The notes below the pieces were generated by a model that saw only the letters and a list, made by a program, of their open reading frames with translations, was not told where the DNA came from and ran no database searches. Made by a program: the position numbers and the translations under genes. This document shows, in pieces, positions 26,462 through 60,086 of a DNA stretch of 64,000 nucleotides; the first letter of the stretch is position 1, and each line of letters begins with the position of its first letter. Origin of the DNA: Parvularia atlantis (taxonomy: Eukaryota; Opisthokonta; Rotosphaerida); contig CALSCO010001326.1 in NCBI GenBank assembly GCA_943704415.1, positions 1-64,000 of the forward strand. Reading direction: 5' to 3'.

Positions 26462-27776
26462 ATGCACGCGGTCTCGGTCGCATCGCGCGTCGTCGGCGCG
26501 CGCTCGGCCGTGCAGGCGGTCGCGGCCTGCGCCGAGGCCGTGCGCGCGATGGCAGCGGGTCGTGCGGTGCAGCTGGCGTTCGTGACGGTCGCGGGCGCGG
26601 TCGAGGACGGGTGCGGGCCGCGAGCGATCAGCCGCACGCACACGCACTGCTGACGCCGACGCCGGCAGCATCGCGGCGGGCGAGGCCGCGCGGGCCGCGC
26701 TCGGGCGCCAAACGCACGTGCTCGGCGGCATCGTCGCGCCGTCGTCCGGCAGCGCCGGCGCCAGCGAGGTCACGGTGACGGCGCTGTGCCACGAGCAGCT
26801 GCGCGTGCTCCCGTTCCACTTCGACAAGGAGGCGCGCGACCACGCCCGCGTCGGCCGCTACAACATCGCCGGGCGGGTCGAGGGCCACTTTGACTTCTCC
26901 AAGTTCACGTCGGTCTCGAGCGCGCCGCTGCTGCCGCTGCCGCCGCCGCTGGCCGAGCTGTGCGGGGTGATTGGCGTGATCGTCGTGCCGATGCTGACCG
27001 CGCCGCGTCGCGCAGGGCCCGCGGCGGCACGCGCCAGGGCGAGGCCTCGCCCATCTTCCTCTTCGTGAGCGACAACGCCAGCGACGCGTACCTGCGCTCG
27101 CTCGATGGCGCCTTCCCGCAGTCGCTCAAGGCGCGAGCGCGCCGATCGTTCACCTGGCGCCGCACTGATCGCCGCGACGACGCGCAGGCCGGGCTGATCG
27201 GCCTCGACACGCCGTTCGTCAACGGCCTGCCCACGACGCTGTTTCTGGACGACCGCGTGCACGAGAGCGGCCTCGTCGGCGTCGCGCTCACGGGCAGGGT
27301 GCGCGCCAAGATCCGCACGACGCACACGGGGCGCTACCTCGGCCGGCCGATGCGCGTGACCAAGCACGTCGCGCCACGCACACGCTTGCGCACGCACTCC
27401 CCCCTCCAATTGACGCGAGGCGTGCAGAGCGCGCGGCAACATGGTCGTGGAGATCGAGGGCAAGAACCCGTCGCAGATGCTGCTCGACCTGGTCGAGGCC
27501 GACGCCGCCCTCGCCGGCTCGTTCACCAAGGGCGACCAAGTCTTCCTGGCCGTGTCGCACGAGGCGCCGCCGTCGACCGATCCGCAGGACAGCGTGCCCA
27601 AGGTGCGTACCGCAGTGCACCGATGCGCGCACACGCTTGACGCCGGGGCGCCAGATGAAGCACGAGGACTTTGCCGTGCTGCGCGTGCTCAGCGGCGACC
27701 CCAGGCGTGGGCCCGTGGCCGTCGACACGACGCGCGAGCTGCACAAGGGCCTCGTGGTGCAGGTGCGCCCCCTGCC

Positions 27777-27811
<35 letters not shown>

Positions 27812-28224
27812 GCACAGCGGGCACGCGCTGACTTTGGAGCCAGTTTGTGCGCAGCGCCGACGCCAGCACCGTGGCCGCCGCGACCGCGCCCACGGCCACG
27901 CCGCCGATCCCGCCAGGCCTCAACGCGTACGCGCGCTTCTTCTTCCGCTCGGCGGTGCCGGCCGCAGACAGCGACAGGGGGACCGCACCCACGACGCCGC
28001 TGACCGCCGCAGCCGACGCCGCCCCGCGCCAGCAGCTCTCTTACGACGGCGACCCGCACACGGCGCTCGTGACCGAGAGCGAGCAAGGGTGCGTGAGCAG
28101 CGTGGGCGGGAGCGGCAGCGACGACATCGACGGCGACGGCGCAACCGTGTTTACGACCGTGCACCGCCTGCCGCTCACGACGGTCTCGCTCGCGCTGTTT
28201 GAGCACCCGCCGCGGGTGACGTGA
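26462..28224 (+). CDS. FIST-domain protein (FIST_N and FIST_C)
   Basis: FIST domains are proposed small-ligand sensors, common in bacterial signalling proteins and present in F-box protein FBXO22 of animals. The N-terminal part begins MHAVSVASRVVGARSAVQAV and continues with ARAALGRQTHVLGGIVAPSS and ELCGVIGVIVVPM. The segment LIGLDTPFVNGLPTTLFLDD then ESGLVGVALTG is typical of FIST_N. The join to FIST_C is marked by GRPMRVTK and NMVVEIEGKNPSQMLLDLVE. The C-terminal part includes FAVLRVLSGD and LHKGLVVQ-FVRSADAS. No kinase, cyclase or F-box is seen. One intron (27763-27843) contains a run of 33 T. The start ATG is 38 bp after the RWDD1 stop. Confidence 0.65.
27778..27810. repeat. Poly-T tract of 33 bases in a FIST-gene intron
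   Basis: The tract lies between the donor GTGCGCCC (27763) and the branch-like CGCTGACTTTG, with the acceptor at 27843. It could act as a very long polypyrimidine tract, but its position before the branch site makes slippage expansion more likely. Confidence 0.95.
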
Positions 28225-52097: not shown

Positions 52098-54554
52098 ATG
52101 GCGCCTTTTCGAGCAACTTCCACCAGCATGGCCGCGGACGGGTGCGGCGCCTTCTCGCGTCCCGAGCGCGCGCGCCTCTGCCGTGCTGACGCGCCGCGCC
52201 GCCTCCCGCAGCAAGCTGTTTGTCGGGGGGATCAGCTGGGACACGACCGACGGTGCGCGCGCGTGCTGCCGGCCGGGCGGCGCGCTCAGGGGAGGCGGGG
52301 GAGGGGCGCTCACAACGACGCGCCGCGCCGGCAGAGACGCTCAAACAGTACTTCCTGCGCTACGGCGACGTCTTCGACGCGGTTGTCATGCGCGAGCCCG
52401 GCACTGGGCGCTCGCGCGGCTTCGGCTTCGTTACCTTCGTCGACCCGGCCTCGTGCGACCGCGTCCTGCGCGAGAAGCACGTCATTGACGGCAAGACGGT
52501 GGGCGAGCGCGCGCGCTCGTCGCACAACGCTCGGACGCTGACGGCCGGCCGCGCGCGCAGGTCGACCCGAAGCGCGCCGTGCCGCGCGACCAGATCGCCA
52601 CGCAGCCACACACGCGCGCGCCGGTGCCGGCCGTCGCGAGCGTCGGCGTCGGGCTCGCCAGCGGGAACGGCAGCGACTACGGGCCGACGGGCGGCGGGGC
52701 AGGAGGCGGAGGAGGGGGCGGCGGCGACGTTTACGCGCGCAAGATATTTGTGGGCGGCATCGCGCAGTCGACGACGGAGGACGTGCTGCGCGAGTATTTT
52801 GAGCAGGTGTGCTCTCGTGCGCTCTCGTGCGGCTGGTTGACTGAAGCGAGCGCACGCGCAGTACGGCGAGGTCGAGGAGGTGCTGCTCATGATCGACAAG
52901 GCGACGATGCGCACGCGCGGCTTCGCCTTTGTCACGTTCGACTCGGAGGACGCGGTCGAGCGCGCGGTCGAGCGGCGCATGCATGAGATAGACAACAAAC
53001 CCGTGCGTCTGAGCGCGCTCGCTCCAGCCGCTGCCATCGCGCTCACTCCGCATGCGCGCCAGAACGTCGAGGTCAAGCGCGCCGAGCCGAAGGGCTTCCG
53101 CTCCGTAAACAGCGGCGGCAGCGGCGGCGGGCAGCCCGTGCCGGCGGCCTGGCGCTCGAGCTTCGCGGTGCCGTACGTCGGCGACGGCGGGGGTGCGTGC
53201 TCGCCGGGCTGTGCCCTGTGCGGGGTGCTGGCGCAGGGTGCGGTTGGTTCGCGGTCGGGACGCACATTTATAGAGAAGGTCGCACTCTCACCGACGTGCG
53301 CACCTTGTGGACGTATGTGCAACAGCAGAGGGCTCGCTCTAGGCTCGTGCCTATCCCCTCGCGGGAACGGCGGCGCGGGTGTCCGGCGGGCCGCACAGCA
53401 GTTAACCCCTTCCCACCTCCGCTCACTCTCTCTGTGCCTGCCCTGTCGGTGGCTGACACGCGGGTGTGGGCACAGGACGCGGCTACGGCAGCCCCGGCGG
53501 CTATGGCGTGGTGCGCAGCCACGTGACGCGCGCACAATCGAGGCTGACGCGCGCGCCGCACGCAGCCGCCGACACAGTCGTCCTACGCGGTGCCGTACGG
53601 CGCGGGTGGGGCCGGTGTGGTGCCTCAGCGTGCTGCAAAGCGCGCAGGCCGGCTGACGCGCGCACGCAGGGTACGACTACGAGTCATCGTTCTACACCGT
53701 CGGCCCGGGCGCGCTCGGCGGCTTTGCCGGCGCGGCAGGCCTCGCCACCCGCCCGACGTCGAGCCTTGCCGTGCCGTACCAGGGCTACGGTGACCTCGGC
53801 TGGCCGTGGGCGTGGCCGTGGCTGATTGGCACGTACCACGCCGTCGCCGCAGCCGCATCGGCTGGGTTCGCACCGGGCTACGTCGCACCGGGCGCAGCGC
53901 CCTCGTACGCCGCTGCCTACGGTACGCGCACGCCTACATCGCCTGCGCTTGCTGCTGGCTGCTGACGCGTCGCGGGCGCAGACGCCAGTGCAGCGAGCGC
54001 GGCGCAGCTCAGCCCTGTGCCGCGCGTGCGAGGTGCGCGCTCGGTGCATCTTCGCGCGTTCTGCGCGTGACACCTGCCCGGCGCACAGCATTGCACGGCG
54101 CCATCGGCAGTGGGTACCAGGACCCCTACTACGGCAGCGCGGGCGCGTCCGACCTGGGGAGCGGCGAGTTTGACGAGCCGCAGGCGGGCGCGGTGCCGCG
54201 GGCGGCGGGCGAGTACGACGGTGCGCGCGAGGTGGCGGCTGTGCTGCGTCGCGGTCTCACTACTCCGCAGCCGACGAGTACAGCGACATCTACGCCGATA
54301 GCGACGCGGCCGACGCAGGAGGGGCAGCGGCGGCGGCGGCACCACCAGCACCCTACGGTGCGGTCGCATCCTTTCCCCTCCCGCTCGCGTACTACGTGCG
54401 CGTGCCGGGGACGGGCCTCATCGCGCTGCACCCCCCGCTCGCGCTCGTCAGCCCCGTCTCTGGCAGCCCGGGGCCCGTCGCCGCCTTCGGCGTCCCAGTC
54501 GGCGGCGCGGACGGCATCGGCGCGCTTCCAGCCCTACACGCGCCAGCCGAGTAG
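52098..54554 (+). CDS. hnRNP/Musashi-type protein with two RRMs
   Basis: RNA-binding regulator of mRNA processing or translation. The first exon MAPFRATSTSMAADG splices directly into RRM1, with RNP2 KLFVGGISWDTTD and RNP1 GRSRGFGFVTFVDP. A Gly-rich linker ([19 protein letters not shown]) leads to RRM2, with RNP2 KIFVGGIAQSTTEDVLREYF and RNP1 MRTRGFAFVTFDSEDA. The remaining ~1.4 kb encodes a low-complexity Gly/Tyr/Ala/Pro domain such as SLAVPYQGYGDLGWPWAWPW, GYQDPYYGSAGASDLGSGEF and FPLPLAYYVRVPGTGL. This is typical of proteins that condense. The RRM pair is closest in style to hnRNP A/B, DAZAP1, Musashi and yeast Hrp1. Exon joins in the low-complexity part are uncertain. I read the end as HAPAE with TAG at 54552-54554, and an alternative frame would end 4 bases later. 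Confidence 0.85.
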
Positions 54555-54580
54555 CTAGTGTTCATTATGTATATCGCAAG

Positions 54581-56041
54581 ATGGTACCTGTACACAGCCT
54601 GCCGTGTCGCATCCGACGCACCGGCGCCGCCGCCGTCGGCCGCTACTTCCGCGCGCGCGATACCGGGCCGGACGGCGCGTGGGCGGCACGCTTCCGTGGG
54701 CGCGCGCTCGTCGGCCGCCGCATGGCCGTGCCGCCGGGCTACGCCGGGCTCGTGCTGCGCGAGCGCTTGCTGCCGGGCCGCGGCCGCAAGCGCGCGGTGC
54801 ACGACGACGACGACGACGACGACGAGGCGCGCACTTGGGCCGCCGCGGCCGCGTTCGACGCGTTCGTGTGCTGGGAGCACGACACGGCGCCCCTGCGCGA
54901 CCATCCGCTGCTGCGCGTCGCAGAATGGACGGCGCTGGCTGCGGCGGTGCGGCCACCCATGCCCCGATCGGCCTGCTGACGCGCCCCGCGCCCGCCGCAG
55001 CTGCACGGCCGCGCCGACGTCGACTCGCGCAACGACCCGGCCGACGTCGCCGCCGCGTTCGCGCCGCCGATGGACGGGCAGACGCAGTGGGTCGCGATCA
55101 AGCCCGGTGCGCGCAGCGCAGCACGACGCTTGGTATCGGCGCGTGCTGACGCGGGAAGAGCAGGGACCGGCCCTGCGCGCTCGTTCCGCCTGCCGCACCC
55201 GCGTACCGGGCGGCCCGCGCGCTTCTTCCTGCAGGACGACGACTGCACGCTGCTTGAGGCGCAGAGCGTTAGCACGCGCGAGCAGTCGTGGTTCGTGGGC
55301 GACTCGGTGCAGGAGGACGGGCGCCTCGTGCTGCTCACGCCGATGCACCCGGTCTTCCTCCTGATCGGCGCCCTCGCTCGCGCACGGCACCCGCCCTCGC
55401 GCCGCGAGCCCGCGGGCGACGGCGTGTTTGTGACGCTGGACCAGCTCCTAACCGACGCCGACACGGCCGAGCTGCGGCAGCTGCAGTCTGTGGCGCAGCT
55501 GGACGAGCTCGAGCGCGTGTGCGACGTCAAAAGCGTGCACGACATGGTCCTGTACCGGCTCAACGACGCCAAGCTGCTCGCGTGGCTCAAGGGTGCGCTC
55601 GCTCTTTGCAGGGGCTCGCTCCCGTCTGATGCCTGTGAGCGCACAGAGCGCGTGCAGGCCGTGGCCGCCGCGGTGACCAGCGCAGGCGTGCTCGAGCATC
55701 ACCCGACGGCCGGCACCCTCGAGCTCGCGCTCAACCTTGTGCTGTCGTACCTGGACGAGGCGTGGGCCGCGCGGCTGCAGGACGACGCCGACTACGCGAT
55801 GCTCGCGCCGCCGCCGCCCGCAGCCGCGCCCACAGCAGCGCCCGCCGTCGCGGCAGACGAGGCCGCACCCGACGAGGCGTCGCCGTCGCAGCCCGCGGCC
55901 AAGAAGCGGCGCCTGACGGGCAAGGTGCGTCTGCGCCACTGGCCTGTTGATGGTGCGCTGACCCTGCCCGCACAGGCGGCCGCTGCGGCGACGTCGGCCA
56001 AGGGCATGAAGCCGCTGTCGTCGTTCTTCAAGCCGGCGTGA
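54581..56041 (+). CDS. RNASEH2C-RNASEH2B: RNase H2 subunit C - subunit B fusion protein
   Basis: Non-catalytic scaffold of RNase H2, which removes ribonucleotides from DNA and cuts RNA-DNA hybrids. The first ~130 residues are subunit C: VHSLPCRIRRTGAAAVGRYF, then FRGRALVGRRMAVPPGYAGL and WTALAAALHG, the family C-terminus. An acidic Asp run lies near residue 74. With no stop, the frame continues through AFAPPMDGQTQWVAIKPG into subunit B: FRLPHPRTGRPARFFL, STREQSWFVGDSVQEDGRLV, LLTPMHPVFLLIGAL, VHDMVLYRLNDAKLLAWLK and a helical C-terminal part. It ends in MKPLSSFFKPA, a PCNA-binding (PIP-like) motif as in human RNASEH2B. The introns at 54947-55000 (54 bp), 55107-55163 (57 bp) and two later ones keep phase. 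The product is about 415 residues. Unspliced reading of the first intron would stop at 54977-54979 and separate the two. Confidence 0.85.
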
Positions 56042-56090: not shown

Positions 56091-56899
56091 TCACTGCACC
56101 ACGCAGCCCGCCGACTTGGCCGGCTGCGGGTTGGACGCCTTCTCGATCTCGTTGAGGATGTCCTCGAAGATGGCGGCTGCGTGCGTGCGCGGGGCGTCAG
56201 GGCCGCGGGCCGCCAGACAGACACGAGCGAACGAGTACGCACTGATGTTTTGGTTGAGCTTGGCCGAGGCCTCGAGGTGGACGCAGTTCCACTCGGCCGC
56301 GAGCTTCTGCGCCTCCTCGGTGCGTACTTGCCTGTGTGCACGTTTGCGAGTGAGCGATGCGCGCCACAAAGCGAGCGTGCCGCACCGCTGGTGCTCGAGG
56401 TCGCACTTGTTGCCGACGAGGACGATGGGCACCCAGTTGGTCCCGGTCGAGTCGAGGATCTTCTCGCGGATGACCTTGCAGTTCTCGAGGCTGGACCGGG
56501 CCGTGATCGAGTACACGAGGATGTACCCGTGCACGCCCACGGCGTGCTTCGAGTTCATGAGCGAGTACTCGTCCTGGCCGCCGTCTCGGCGCTCAGTGGT
56601 GTGCGCGCGCGCTCACACGGCCCGCAACGACGCACCTGCCCGGCCGTGTCGATGATCTCCGTCTGGAACTCCTGCCCGCGGTACTTGATCACCTTCGTGA
56701 ACGTGTTCTCGATCGTCGGGTAGTACGAGTCGACAAAGTGGCTCTCCACAAACTGGATCGTCAGCGACGACTTGCCTGGTGGCGTCGCGGCGCCGCGGCG
56801 CCCGCCGTCAGGCAGCAGACGGCGGAGAGGCGACGGCGCGCGCGCACCGACGGCGCGGAAGCCGAGCACGGCGATGCGGCGAGTCTTGGGCGACGCCAT
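56091..56899 (-). CDS. RHEB: RHEB small GTPase
   Basis: Ras-family GTPase that activates mTORC1 on the lysosome. The P-loop GFRAVG-KSS is formed across the first intron and has the Rheb-type Arg at the position of Ras Gly12. The effector region VDSYYPTIENTFTKVIKYRG matches Rheb closely. The switch II DTAGQ-DEYSLMNS also spans an intron. HGYILVYSITARSSLENCKV, VLVGNKCDLEHQR and the SAK motif in LEASAKLNQNI follow. The C-terminus GCVVQ is a CaaX box, and the terminal Gln favours farnesylation. Four or five introns are present. The stop is 50 bp from the convergent RNase H2 gene. All nucleotide-binding motifs are intact. Confidence 0.93.
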
Positions 56900-57007
56900 G
56901 GCTGTGCGGCGCGGCGGGCGTCAGGCGCGGTAAGGGTCGGAGGACGGTCGGCAAGGCGCAGCTGTGGTCGCGCAGCGTGCCGCAGCACTAAAGTCCAAGT
57001 GAGCGGG

Positions 57008-57087: not shown

Positions 57088-59774
57088 TCACGCAAAGTAC
57101 GCCTCGGCCTTGCGCACGAGGTCGTCCTTCTTGTCGGTCGAGGCGGCCTTGACGCCGACGCCCTGCGGCGCGGCGCACACGCGATGATGAGCACGAGCGA
57201 GCGCGCTTGGAACGCCGCGCACCTTGAGAAAGTCCTTGAGCTCGGCGATCGTCAGCTTGCCCACCGAGCCGTTCGCGACCATCTGCTTCACGTCGTCCTC
57301 CGTCACGGGCGCCTTGACCTTCTTCGCCCGCCCGCCCGCGCTCGCCGCGCCGTCCTCGCCGTCCGCGCTCGCGGCCGCCTTGCGCTTGCCTGTGCGAGCG
57401 CGCACATCTGTCTCAGCCGGCAGCAGCCCAACGCAACGCAGCGCAAACGCACTCGCTGCGGTCGTGCGCGACGCCGCGGTCCCGCGCACCTCGGGCGTCC
57501 ACCCGTCGGGGAAGGCGCCCTGCAGGAACGCGTCGATGGCCGGCCCCGCGCGCGCCTGCATGCTATCGATCTGCGGCATCGTCGCGTCGGCGATCTCCTC
57601 CGGCACGTCCTGGTTGAGCGCGATCAGCTGCAGCGTCTGGTAGTGCCGTTGCAGGGCTGTGCGCCGCGTGAGCCGGCGACACCACAGCCGCACTCTCGCG
57701 CGACGCACTCGGGTTCTCGACCGCCACCCAGCCCTTGAGCGTCAGCTTCTTCACGATCGCCTGGAAGCGCCGCACGTCGTCGTCCTTCGCTGCGGCCGCG
57801 GTCGGTCAGACGCGGACGGTGTGCGACGGGCGCCGGGGCGCACCCTTGTTGACGGGCTCGTGCGCGAGCTTGCGGATGTCGTCGTTGAACGGCAGGTAGA
57901 CGATGTGCATCCCCGGCGGCTTCTTCTGCACGCCCGTCGCGCTCACCTCCTCGCGCTGCTCCCCCGCGCGCGCGCTCAGCGAGGCGGCGCGCACATCGCA
58001 CGCGGACGGCGCACCTGCGGGATCAGTGCGACGAAGCGCGGCAGCGTGTGGCTGCGCGCGATCAGCCGGCAGATCGCCACCTTGTCCTTGCGCAGCAGGC
58101 TCTCGATCAGCGCCGCAAACACGGTCGACGACCCGCGCACGTCCTGCCACCGCGCTCAGCCCCGCGTGGTCGCCGTGCCCAGGCGGTGCGCACGTGGTCG
58201 TTCGGGTAGATGAACGGCCCGGCCTTGAGGAAGTGCTTGCGGTGCACGGCGCTCCGCGGCTTGAAGCCCATGAGCACGAGGCCTTTGAGCGTGTCAGACC
58301 GCGCCGCACAGCACACGCGAGCACGCGCGCGCGCACCGGGCTCGCCAACCGTGCGCAGCTTGCTCAGCTCGTCCGTTTCAAACACGACCTGCCGCCCCGC
58401 GCGCGTCACACACAATGCGCACAGACGCCGCCGTTCGCCGCACCCGCTCGCCGCCGTACTCGATGTAGCTGCGCAGGTCCTTGCGGCTCACGATCTGGCC
58501 GGTCGTCTGCCGGCGCCGCGCGTCACGCACGGCCTCGCGTGCGCGCGCAGCAAGCGACCGCACGCACGCACGTTGGTGACGTACTTTGTGAGCGCCTTGA
58601 CCTCGGCGTTCTGCGCCATCGGGTCCATGTACGTGAACGCGCCCTTCTTCGCCTCGCCCACGAGGTTGAAGCTGCGCCGGCCGTGAGCGTTGCGACCCGC
58701 CAGGGCGCACGCAGCGGACGCACACGCGCACGGCGATCTCCATCTTGTTGCTGAGGAAGAACGGCAGGCGCGCCATCGTGCGCTTCTTGTACTCCTTCTT
58801 GCGCAGCTGGTCGAAGATCTGGTCGAGCTTGTCGGCGCCGGCGGGATAGTGGTCGGCCATGTCGTCCTCGTCGATCGAGAGGATTTGCTGGCAGAGGCGG
58901 TCGCGTCAAGCGCTTCTGCTGTGTGCGGTTTCGGCGGCGCGCACCGCGTAAAACTTGGCGACGTCAAACTTGTGCCCGGGCCGGTTCATCGAGAACAGCT
59001 CGATTTCAATGCCCAGCTCGGCCAGGTCCTGCGCCTTCCGCTTGGCCGTCGTCTGGTCCTGCGCGTCGCCCGCGTTCGGGTCGTCGTTGTTGGTGAAGAA
59101 GAAGATGCGCTTGCTGCCGACCTTGATGGCGCTGCGCTTTGCGGTCAGCGCGCGCGACGCGGGTGCGCGCTGCGCCGCACCACTTGGAGAAGAGCATCGA
59201 GGCCGCCCAGAGCACCTTCTCGAGCGACGGGATCTGCTGCGCGTGCCCGATCGTCTTCGCAAACACGGCCGGGTCTGCTCGCAGTCGCGCTCAGCCCGTG
59301 CGATTGGCGCGGTCGAGGGGGGCGACCCCACACCCTGCAGCTGCTCCAGCTGGCTCACGCCGGGCGCGTCGGGCACGCCGAGCTCCTGAACGACGTGTAG
59401 CCCGTCGAAGCTGTGGTCGTTCTTGGCGTTGGCCTGCGCGCGCCGAGCGCGGCGTGGGCGATGCACGGGCGATGCGCATCGGTGGCGGCACGCACGGCGC
59501 CGAAGAACATGACGCCGACAAGGTCGTCCACGCCCGCGATGATCTTGTTCTGGTACACGCGACTCGCGCCACGCAGGGCGCATCGGAGCGGGCTGTCGCC
59601 GCCGTCCACGGCCGGCTCGAGCATGTCCTCGGAGCAGTCGATGGCGAAGAGGATCGAGTCCTTGTTGAGCCAGCGCGTCTCCTCCGTGTCGTCCGCCCGG
59701 TCGTCGTCGTCCTGCTCCTCGTCCTCGCCGGCCTCGTCCTCGTCCTCGTCGCGTCCGCCCCACGACGCAGACAT
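57088..59774 (-). CDS. XRCC6: Ku70 (XRCC6), end-joining DNA-end binding subunit
   Basis: Forms with Ku80 the ring that loads on broken DNA ends for non-homologous end joining. The N-terminus is acidic (SWGGRDEDEDEAGEDEEQDD). The vWA domain follows with WLNKDSILFAIDCSEDMLEP and VYQNKIIAGVDDLVGVMFFG. KRIFFFTNNDDPNAGDA, then AELGIEIELFSMNRPGHKFD, are typical Ku70. The core barrel has NLVGEAKKGAFTYMDP, SRKDLRSYIEYGGERV, LVLMGFKPRS, FLKAGPFIYPNDHVR and PPGMHIVYLPFNDDIRKLAH. The Ku C-terminal arm contains YQTLQLIALNQDVPEEIADA. A C-terminal SAP domain (VGKLTIAELKDFLKVR, then DLVRKAEAYFA) identifies Ku70 rather than Ku80. About a dozen short introns interrupt it. An upstream in-frame ATG at 59798 is possible. 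Confidence 0.94.
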
Positions 59775-59802
59775 GATGGGTGGCGCTACCGTCTGCAAAC
59801 TG

Positions 59803-59876
59803 GCTTGACGCGCCTGAGCTCGTGTTTTGGCTGCTGGTGAGGCCGCTGCAAACGGCAGCGCGTGAGCTCATGTTTT
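59803..59876. promoter_or_regulatory. Duplicated motif in the Ku70 / VPS52 bidirectional promoter
   Basis: Within 112 bp between divergent starts, CTGCAAAC then TGAGCTCGTGTTTT (59803-59828) is repeated as CTGCAAAC then TGAGCTCATGTTTT (59846-59876). The arrangement suggests a tandem duplication of a regulatory unit. Its factor is unknown. Confidence 0.5.
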
Positions 59877-59886
59877 CGACGACGCC

Positions 59887-60086
59887 ATGGCCGGTGCGCG
59901 CTCAAAGAGCGACCTCTCGCTCTCGCGCTCTCTCGCGCGCTCTCGCGTCGCTCATCCCGTGCGCCGCGCAGCCGCCGCCGCCACGCCGTCCTCGTCCGAC
60001 GACGCGCTGCGCGCCATGCTGCCCGGCCCGCTCGCGCGCCGCACGCCCACGCCGGCCGCCGCGTCGCCCGCCCTCGCCGACGACGC

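Follow-up and report, generated by a model that had tools for sequence, protein, structure and literature searches.

The locus at positions 54581 to 56041 raises the question whether subunits C and B of the DNA-repair enzyme RNase H2 are encoded as one polypeptide in this genome, as a sequence-only reading had claimed. Each of the three RNase H2 subunits has its own gene in mammals and yeast, and subunit C is central and serves as the assembly platform (PMC12752506). Subunits B and C are intertwined in a dimer, which binds subunit A at a distance from the nucleic acid (PMC3025331). RNase H2 is localised to PCNA by a PIP box in the tail of B, and the B/C interface holds the end of A (PMC11731006). 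What B and C contribute to RNase H2 is not yet fully understood (PMC12752506), and most mutations in Aicardi-Goutieres syndrome are found in these two subunits (PMC11731006).

The window, i.e. the whole stretch of DNA that was analysed (64 kb), is compact and has a GC content of 70%. Genes for 5MP, XRN and Vps52, together with a Rheb-like and a Ku70-like gene, mark the DNA as eukaryotic, and neither tRNA genes nor Rfam matches were detected in the 64 kb. About 70 introns were identified by motif, and they are nearly uniform, with a GTGCG donor, a CTGAC branch motif, a CAG acceptor and lengths of 43–70 nt (median 55 nt), which should make the automatic annotation of this genome easier. A run of about 33 T residues was observed at 27763-27843 within an intron-like stretch, despite the GC content of 70%.

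On the plus strand, an ATG at 54581 starts a reading frame that is open for 414 codons once the four introns at 54947-55000, 55107-55163, 55593-55646 and 55925-55975 are removed, and that is closed by a TGA stop codon ending at 56041. The features of the gene and of its downstream neighbours are as follows:

54581-56041, plus strand: whole C-B fusion gene, five exons, ATG to stop, 414 aa (open spliced translation; Pfam order PF08615, PF17745, PF09468)
54581-54946, plus strand: exon 1, RNase H2 subunit C domain (PF08615; identity to human and mouse C)
54947-55000, plus strand: intron 1, 54 bp, at the boundary between C and B, phase 0 (28.8 bits on the intron model)
55001-55069, plus strand: linker-coding stretch, RADVDSRNDPADVAAAFAPP preceded by LHG, with which the C helix ends (in-frame coding score)
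55070-55106, plus strand: start of the B half, MDGQTQWVAIKPG, with the first barrel strand and a methionine that may once have been the start of B (translation)
55107-55163, plus strand: intron 2, 57 bp (28.4 bits on the intron model)
55164-55592, plus strand: exon 3, remaining part of the barrel of B and beginning of the winged helix (PF17745, PF09468; alignment with human and mouse B)
55593-55646, plus strand: intron 3, 54 bp, within the conserved WLK/ERV helix of B (24.6 bits on the intron model)
55647-55924, plus strand: exon 4, last part of the conserved core of B, followed by an Ala/Pro-rich tail with KKRR (translation)
55925-55975, plus strand: intron 4, 51 bp (26.7 bits on the intron model)
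55976-56041, plus strand: exon 5, GMKPLSSFFKPA as the C-terminal PIP-like motif, then the stop codon (translation; PIP match by motif only)
56091-56900, minus strand: Rheb-like GTPase gene containing four short introns and ending in CVVQ, convergent with the fusion gene at a distance of 49 nt
57091-59900, minus strand: Ku70-like gene (matches Ku_C; the C-terminal end is SAP-like)

The coordinates that the sequence-only reading had given were correct, and the Pfam and PDB matches verified that both halves are real. Its gene structure included the intron at 54947-55000, while the three further introns in the B half (55107-55163, 55593-55646 and 55925-55975) had not been listed. Once intron 3 is removed, LLAWLKERVQAV is regained, and this segment can be aligned with WLEKKVNQTV in mammalian B. 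Exon 2 has a length of 106 nt, and therefore its skipping would break the frame.

The identity of the C half is based on a match to PF08615 (RNase H2 C), which comprises amino acids 4–123 and profile positions 2–133 of 133 (E value 1.2e-21, 77.9 bits compared to a cut-off of 20.8). The B half contains its two domains in the usual order within amino acids 162–313, i.e. the barrel (PF17745, amino acids 162–218, E value 1.9e-9, 38.1 bits, cut-off 25.2) followed by the winged helix (PF09468, amino acids 222–313, E value 1.3e-9, 39.1 bits, cut-off 25.2). The Pfam match to the barrel starts only at profile position 11, and therefore the first B strand was assigned by eye; counted to this strand, the linker behind the C helix has a length of about 24 amino acids. 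In the PDB, convincing matches to the halves were limited to the C and B chains of human and mouse RNase H2. The identity in the aligned core was about 38–39% for the C half and 29% for the B half. The motifs LPC, VGRYF, FRGR, AVPPG and W..LAAALH of C as well as SWF..SVQ, TP..P.FLL, LDQ and WL of B have been retained, and the protein ends with GMKPLSSFFKPA (MKPLSSFF), a putative PCNA-binding motif that resembles the C-terminal PIP box of B. A structural model predicted from the single sequence of the unspliced read-through, with the TGA read as W and the introns included, had a mean pLDDT of 38.5 and was uninformative about the barrel. In a loop of the C domain a run of Asp codons was observed at 54799-54825 (HDDDDDDDE), which might vary in length.

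Whether the two halves belong to one protein depends on intron 1, because its removal forces the frame of C into the frame of B. If it is not removed, C ends 10 residues further on at the TGA at 54977-54979. This opens the alternative of two adjacent genes, in which the 54 bp stay unspliced and B begins with the ATG at 55070, either from its own promoter or by reinitiation. A methionine is indeed present at 55070 just ahead of the first B strand, the unspliced end of C fits the family almost equally well, and the plausible length of such an unspliced C was counted against a fusion. Tight spacing is also found at this locus, because only 26 nt separate the stop codon of an upstream gene with two RRM domains from the start of C. 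Therefore, a distance of 90 nt between two tandem genes would not be unusual.

However, by the rules of this genome itself, intron 1 is a typical and strong intron. An intron model was trained on 66 other introns of the window, which had been picked by motif; intron 1 reached 28.8 bits on this model, more than 86% of these 66 introns. The donor, branch site and acceptor that had been described for 54947-55000 are present. In ten simulated 64-kb strands (640 kb), just two sites in total were as good as intron 1. Introns of the same type are present in the neighbouring Rheb gene, where the ends of the exons are fixed by homology. The TGA of the unspliced reading is part of the CTGAC branch motif, and thus a stop codon at this place is expected by chance in one frame out of three and does not by itself represent the remnant of a former stop codon of C. 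Compared with human C, the spliced end reached 62.3 bits and the unspliced one 60.0 bits, which is a small gain, and Pfam showed no difference. The C-terminal His of C (LAAA-I/L-H), which is invariant in the three aligned sequences, is regained only upon splicing.

Further evidence against two adjacent genes came from the supposed gap at 55001-55069. These 69 bases have a coding score of +4.5 bits in the frame of B compared to -10.4 and -20.6 bits in the other two frames, a score that was reached by 0.14% of simulated non-coding stretches, and every third position is G or C. The mere continuity of the frame past intron 1 is weak evidence on its own, because stop codons are rare at 70% GC. The GC content between the would-be stop codon of C and the methionine of B is 0.84, and thus an AT-rich dip is absent at the C/B junction. 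Of three nearby gene boundaries two are AT-rich, i.e. those between the RRM gene and C (0.35) and after B (0.53), while the value for the Rheb/Ku70 gap is 0.66, and hence such a dip is not universal at gene boundaries here. Taken together, the typical junction intron, the coding linker, the better end of C after splicing and the lack of an AT-rich boundary make C and B as one polypeptide the best reading, as had been proposed. At the level of the gene model the fusion is well supported, and two adjacent genes are unlikely.

The gap of 26 nt upstream of the fusion gene (54555-54580, same strand) has a GC content of 0.35. Its small size indicates that the promoter of the fusion gene probably lies inside the RRM gene, or that both genes have a common transcript. 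It was also considered that the RRM gene runs on into C, and this was rejected, as it uses a different frame and ends with a TAG at 54552-54554.

The position of intron 1 at the domain boundary would also fit a regulated or processed fusion, with a spliced mRNA for C-B, an intron-retained mRNA for C alone, and B alone generated by initiation at 55070 or by cleavage of the linker. Retention of the intron would leave a full-length C domain, and the in-frame ATG at the start of B, which has a G at +4, may be the former start codon of B and would allow internal initiation. Yet none of the observations requires such a regulation, the spliced mRNA contains two other ATGs between the start codon and 55070, one of them out of frame, and every intron with a CTGAC branch motif carries a TGA, which may be in frame by chance. 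This type of regulation is thus regarded as quite improbable. An assembly chimera or a degenerate gene copy can be considered extremely improbable, because an accidental in-frame joining of two partner subunits by a typical intron would hardly be expected, and because the frame is intact over five exons and the conserved residues have been retained.

The best explanation for the locus, with a probability of roughly 84%, is that C and B form a scaffold of one chain, to which a separate catalytic subunit A binds in trans and which docks to PCNA via the tail of B. One eukaryotic nuclear gene would be transcribed, its four short introns would be spliced as modelled, and the mRNA would encode C, a linker of about 24 residues, and B. 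The chain, predicted to stay uncleaved, would fold on itself into the intertwined barrel that is formed by separate C and B proteins elsewhere. The folded chain would then bind the separately encoded subunit A, and the C-terminal PIP-like motif would bring RNase H2 to PCNA. Because B and C are intertwined and bind A, and because the tail of B carries a PIP box, the same RNase H2 complex with the B-C dimer as one chain is most likely. The presence of both subunits in one chain would automatically lead to equal amounts of B and C, and the fusion would be expected to enforce a 1:1 assembly. A more far-reaching version, which is unlikely, is a constitutive C-B scaffold throughout the lineage, by which the heterotrimeric RNase H2 has become an enzyme of two obligate chains; splicing of intron 1 could then decide whether C alone or C-B is made.

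If the single-chain scaffold is true, C and B act as one module without a need to separate, and the distance from the end of C to the start of B can be bridged by about 24 residues within the complex. It would be consistent with the view that A is added to an already paired B and C, and a natural single-chain scaffold could be used in assays. The fusion would not reveal a new activity, and its value depends on a proof at the RNA level and on how widespread it is. A description of a natural RNase H2 C-B fusion was not found in the full text of the open-access papers searched; it may still be described elsewhere or be contained in protein databases. In viral and prokaryotic contigs, no relatives were detected with the fusion, with alignments of C and of B, or with the adjacent Rheb as query; this is expected for a eukaryotic gene and says nothing about eukaryotes.

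In comparison with RNASEH2B/Rnh202 and RNASEH2C/Rnh203, the two halves belong to the same domain families, have similar core sequences, and share a PIP-like C terminus of B. In contrast to mammals and yeast, where B and C are separate genes and proteins, one gene is present here, with C first and B second. Known parts appear to be joined here in a new way, and they do not constitute a new system. An example of a fusion of obligate complex partners is eukaryotic topoisomerase II, in which the equivalents of the bacterial gyrase subunits B and A are united. Likewise, at the locus described here two subunits of one complex appear to be combined in one chain, although the complex is a different one.
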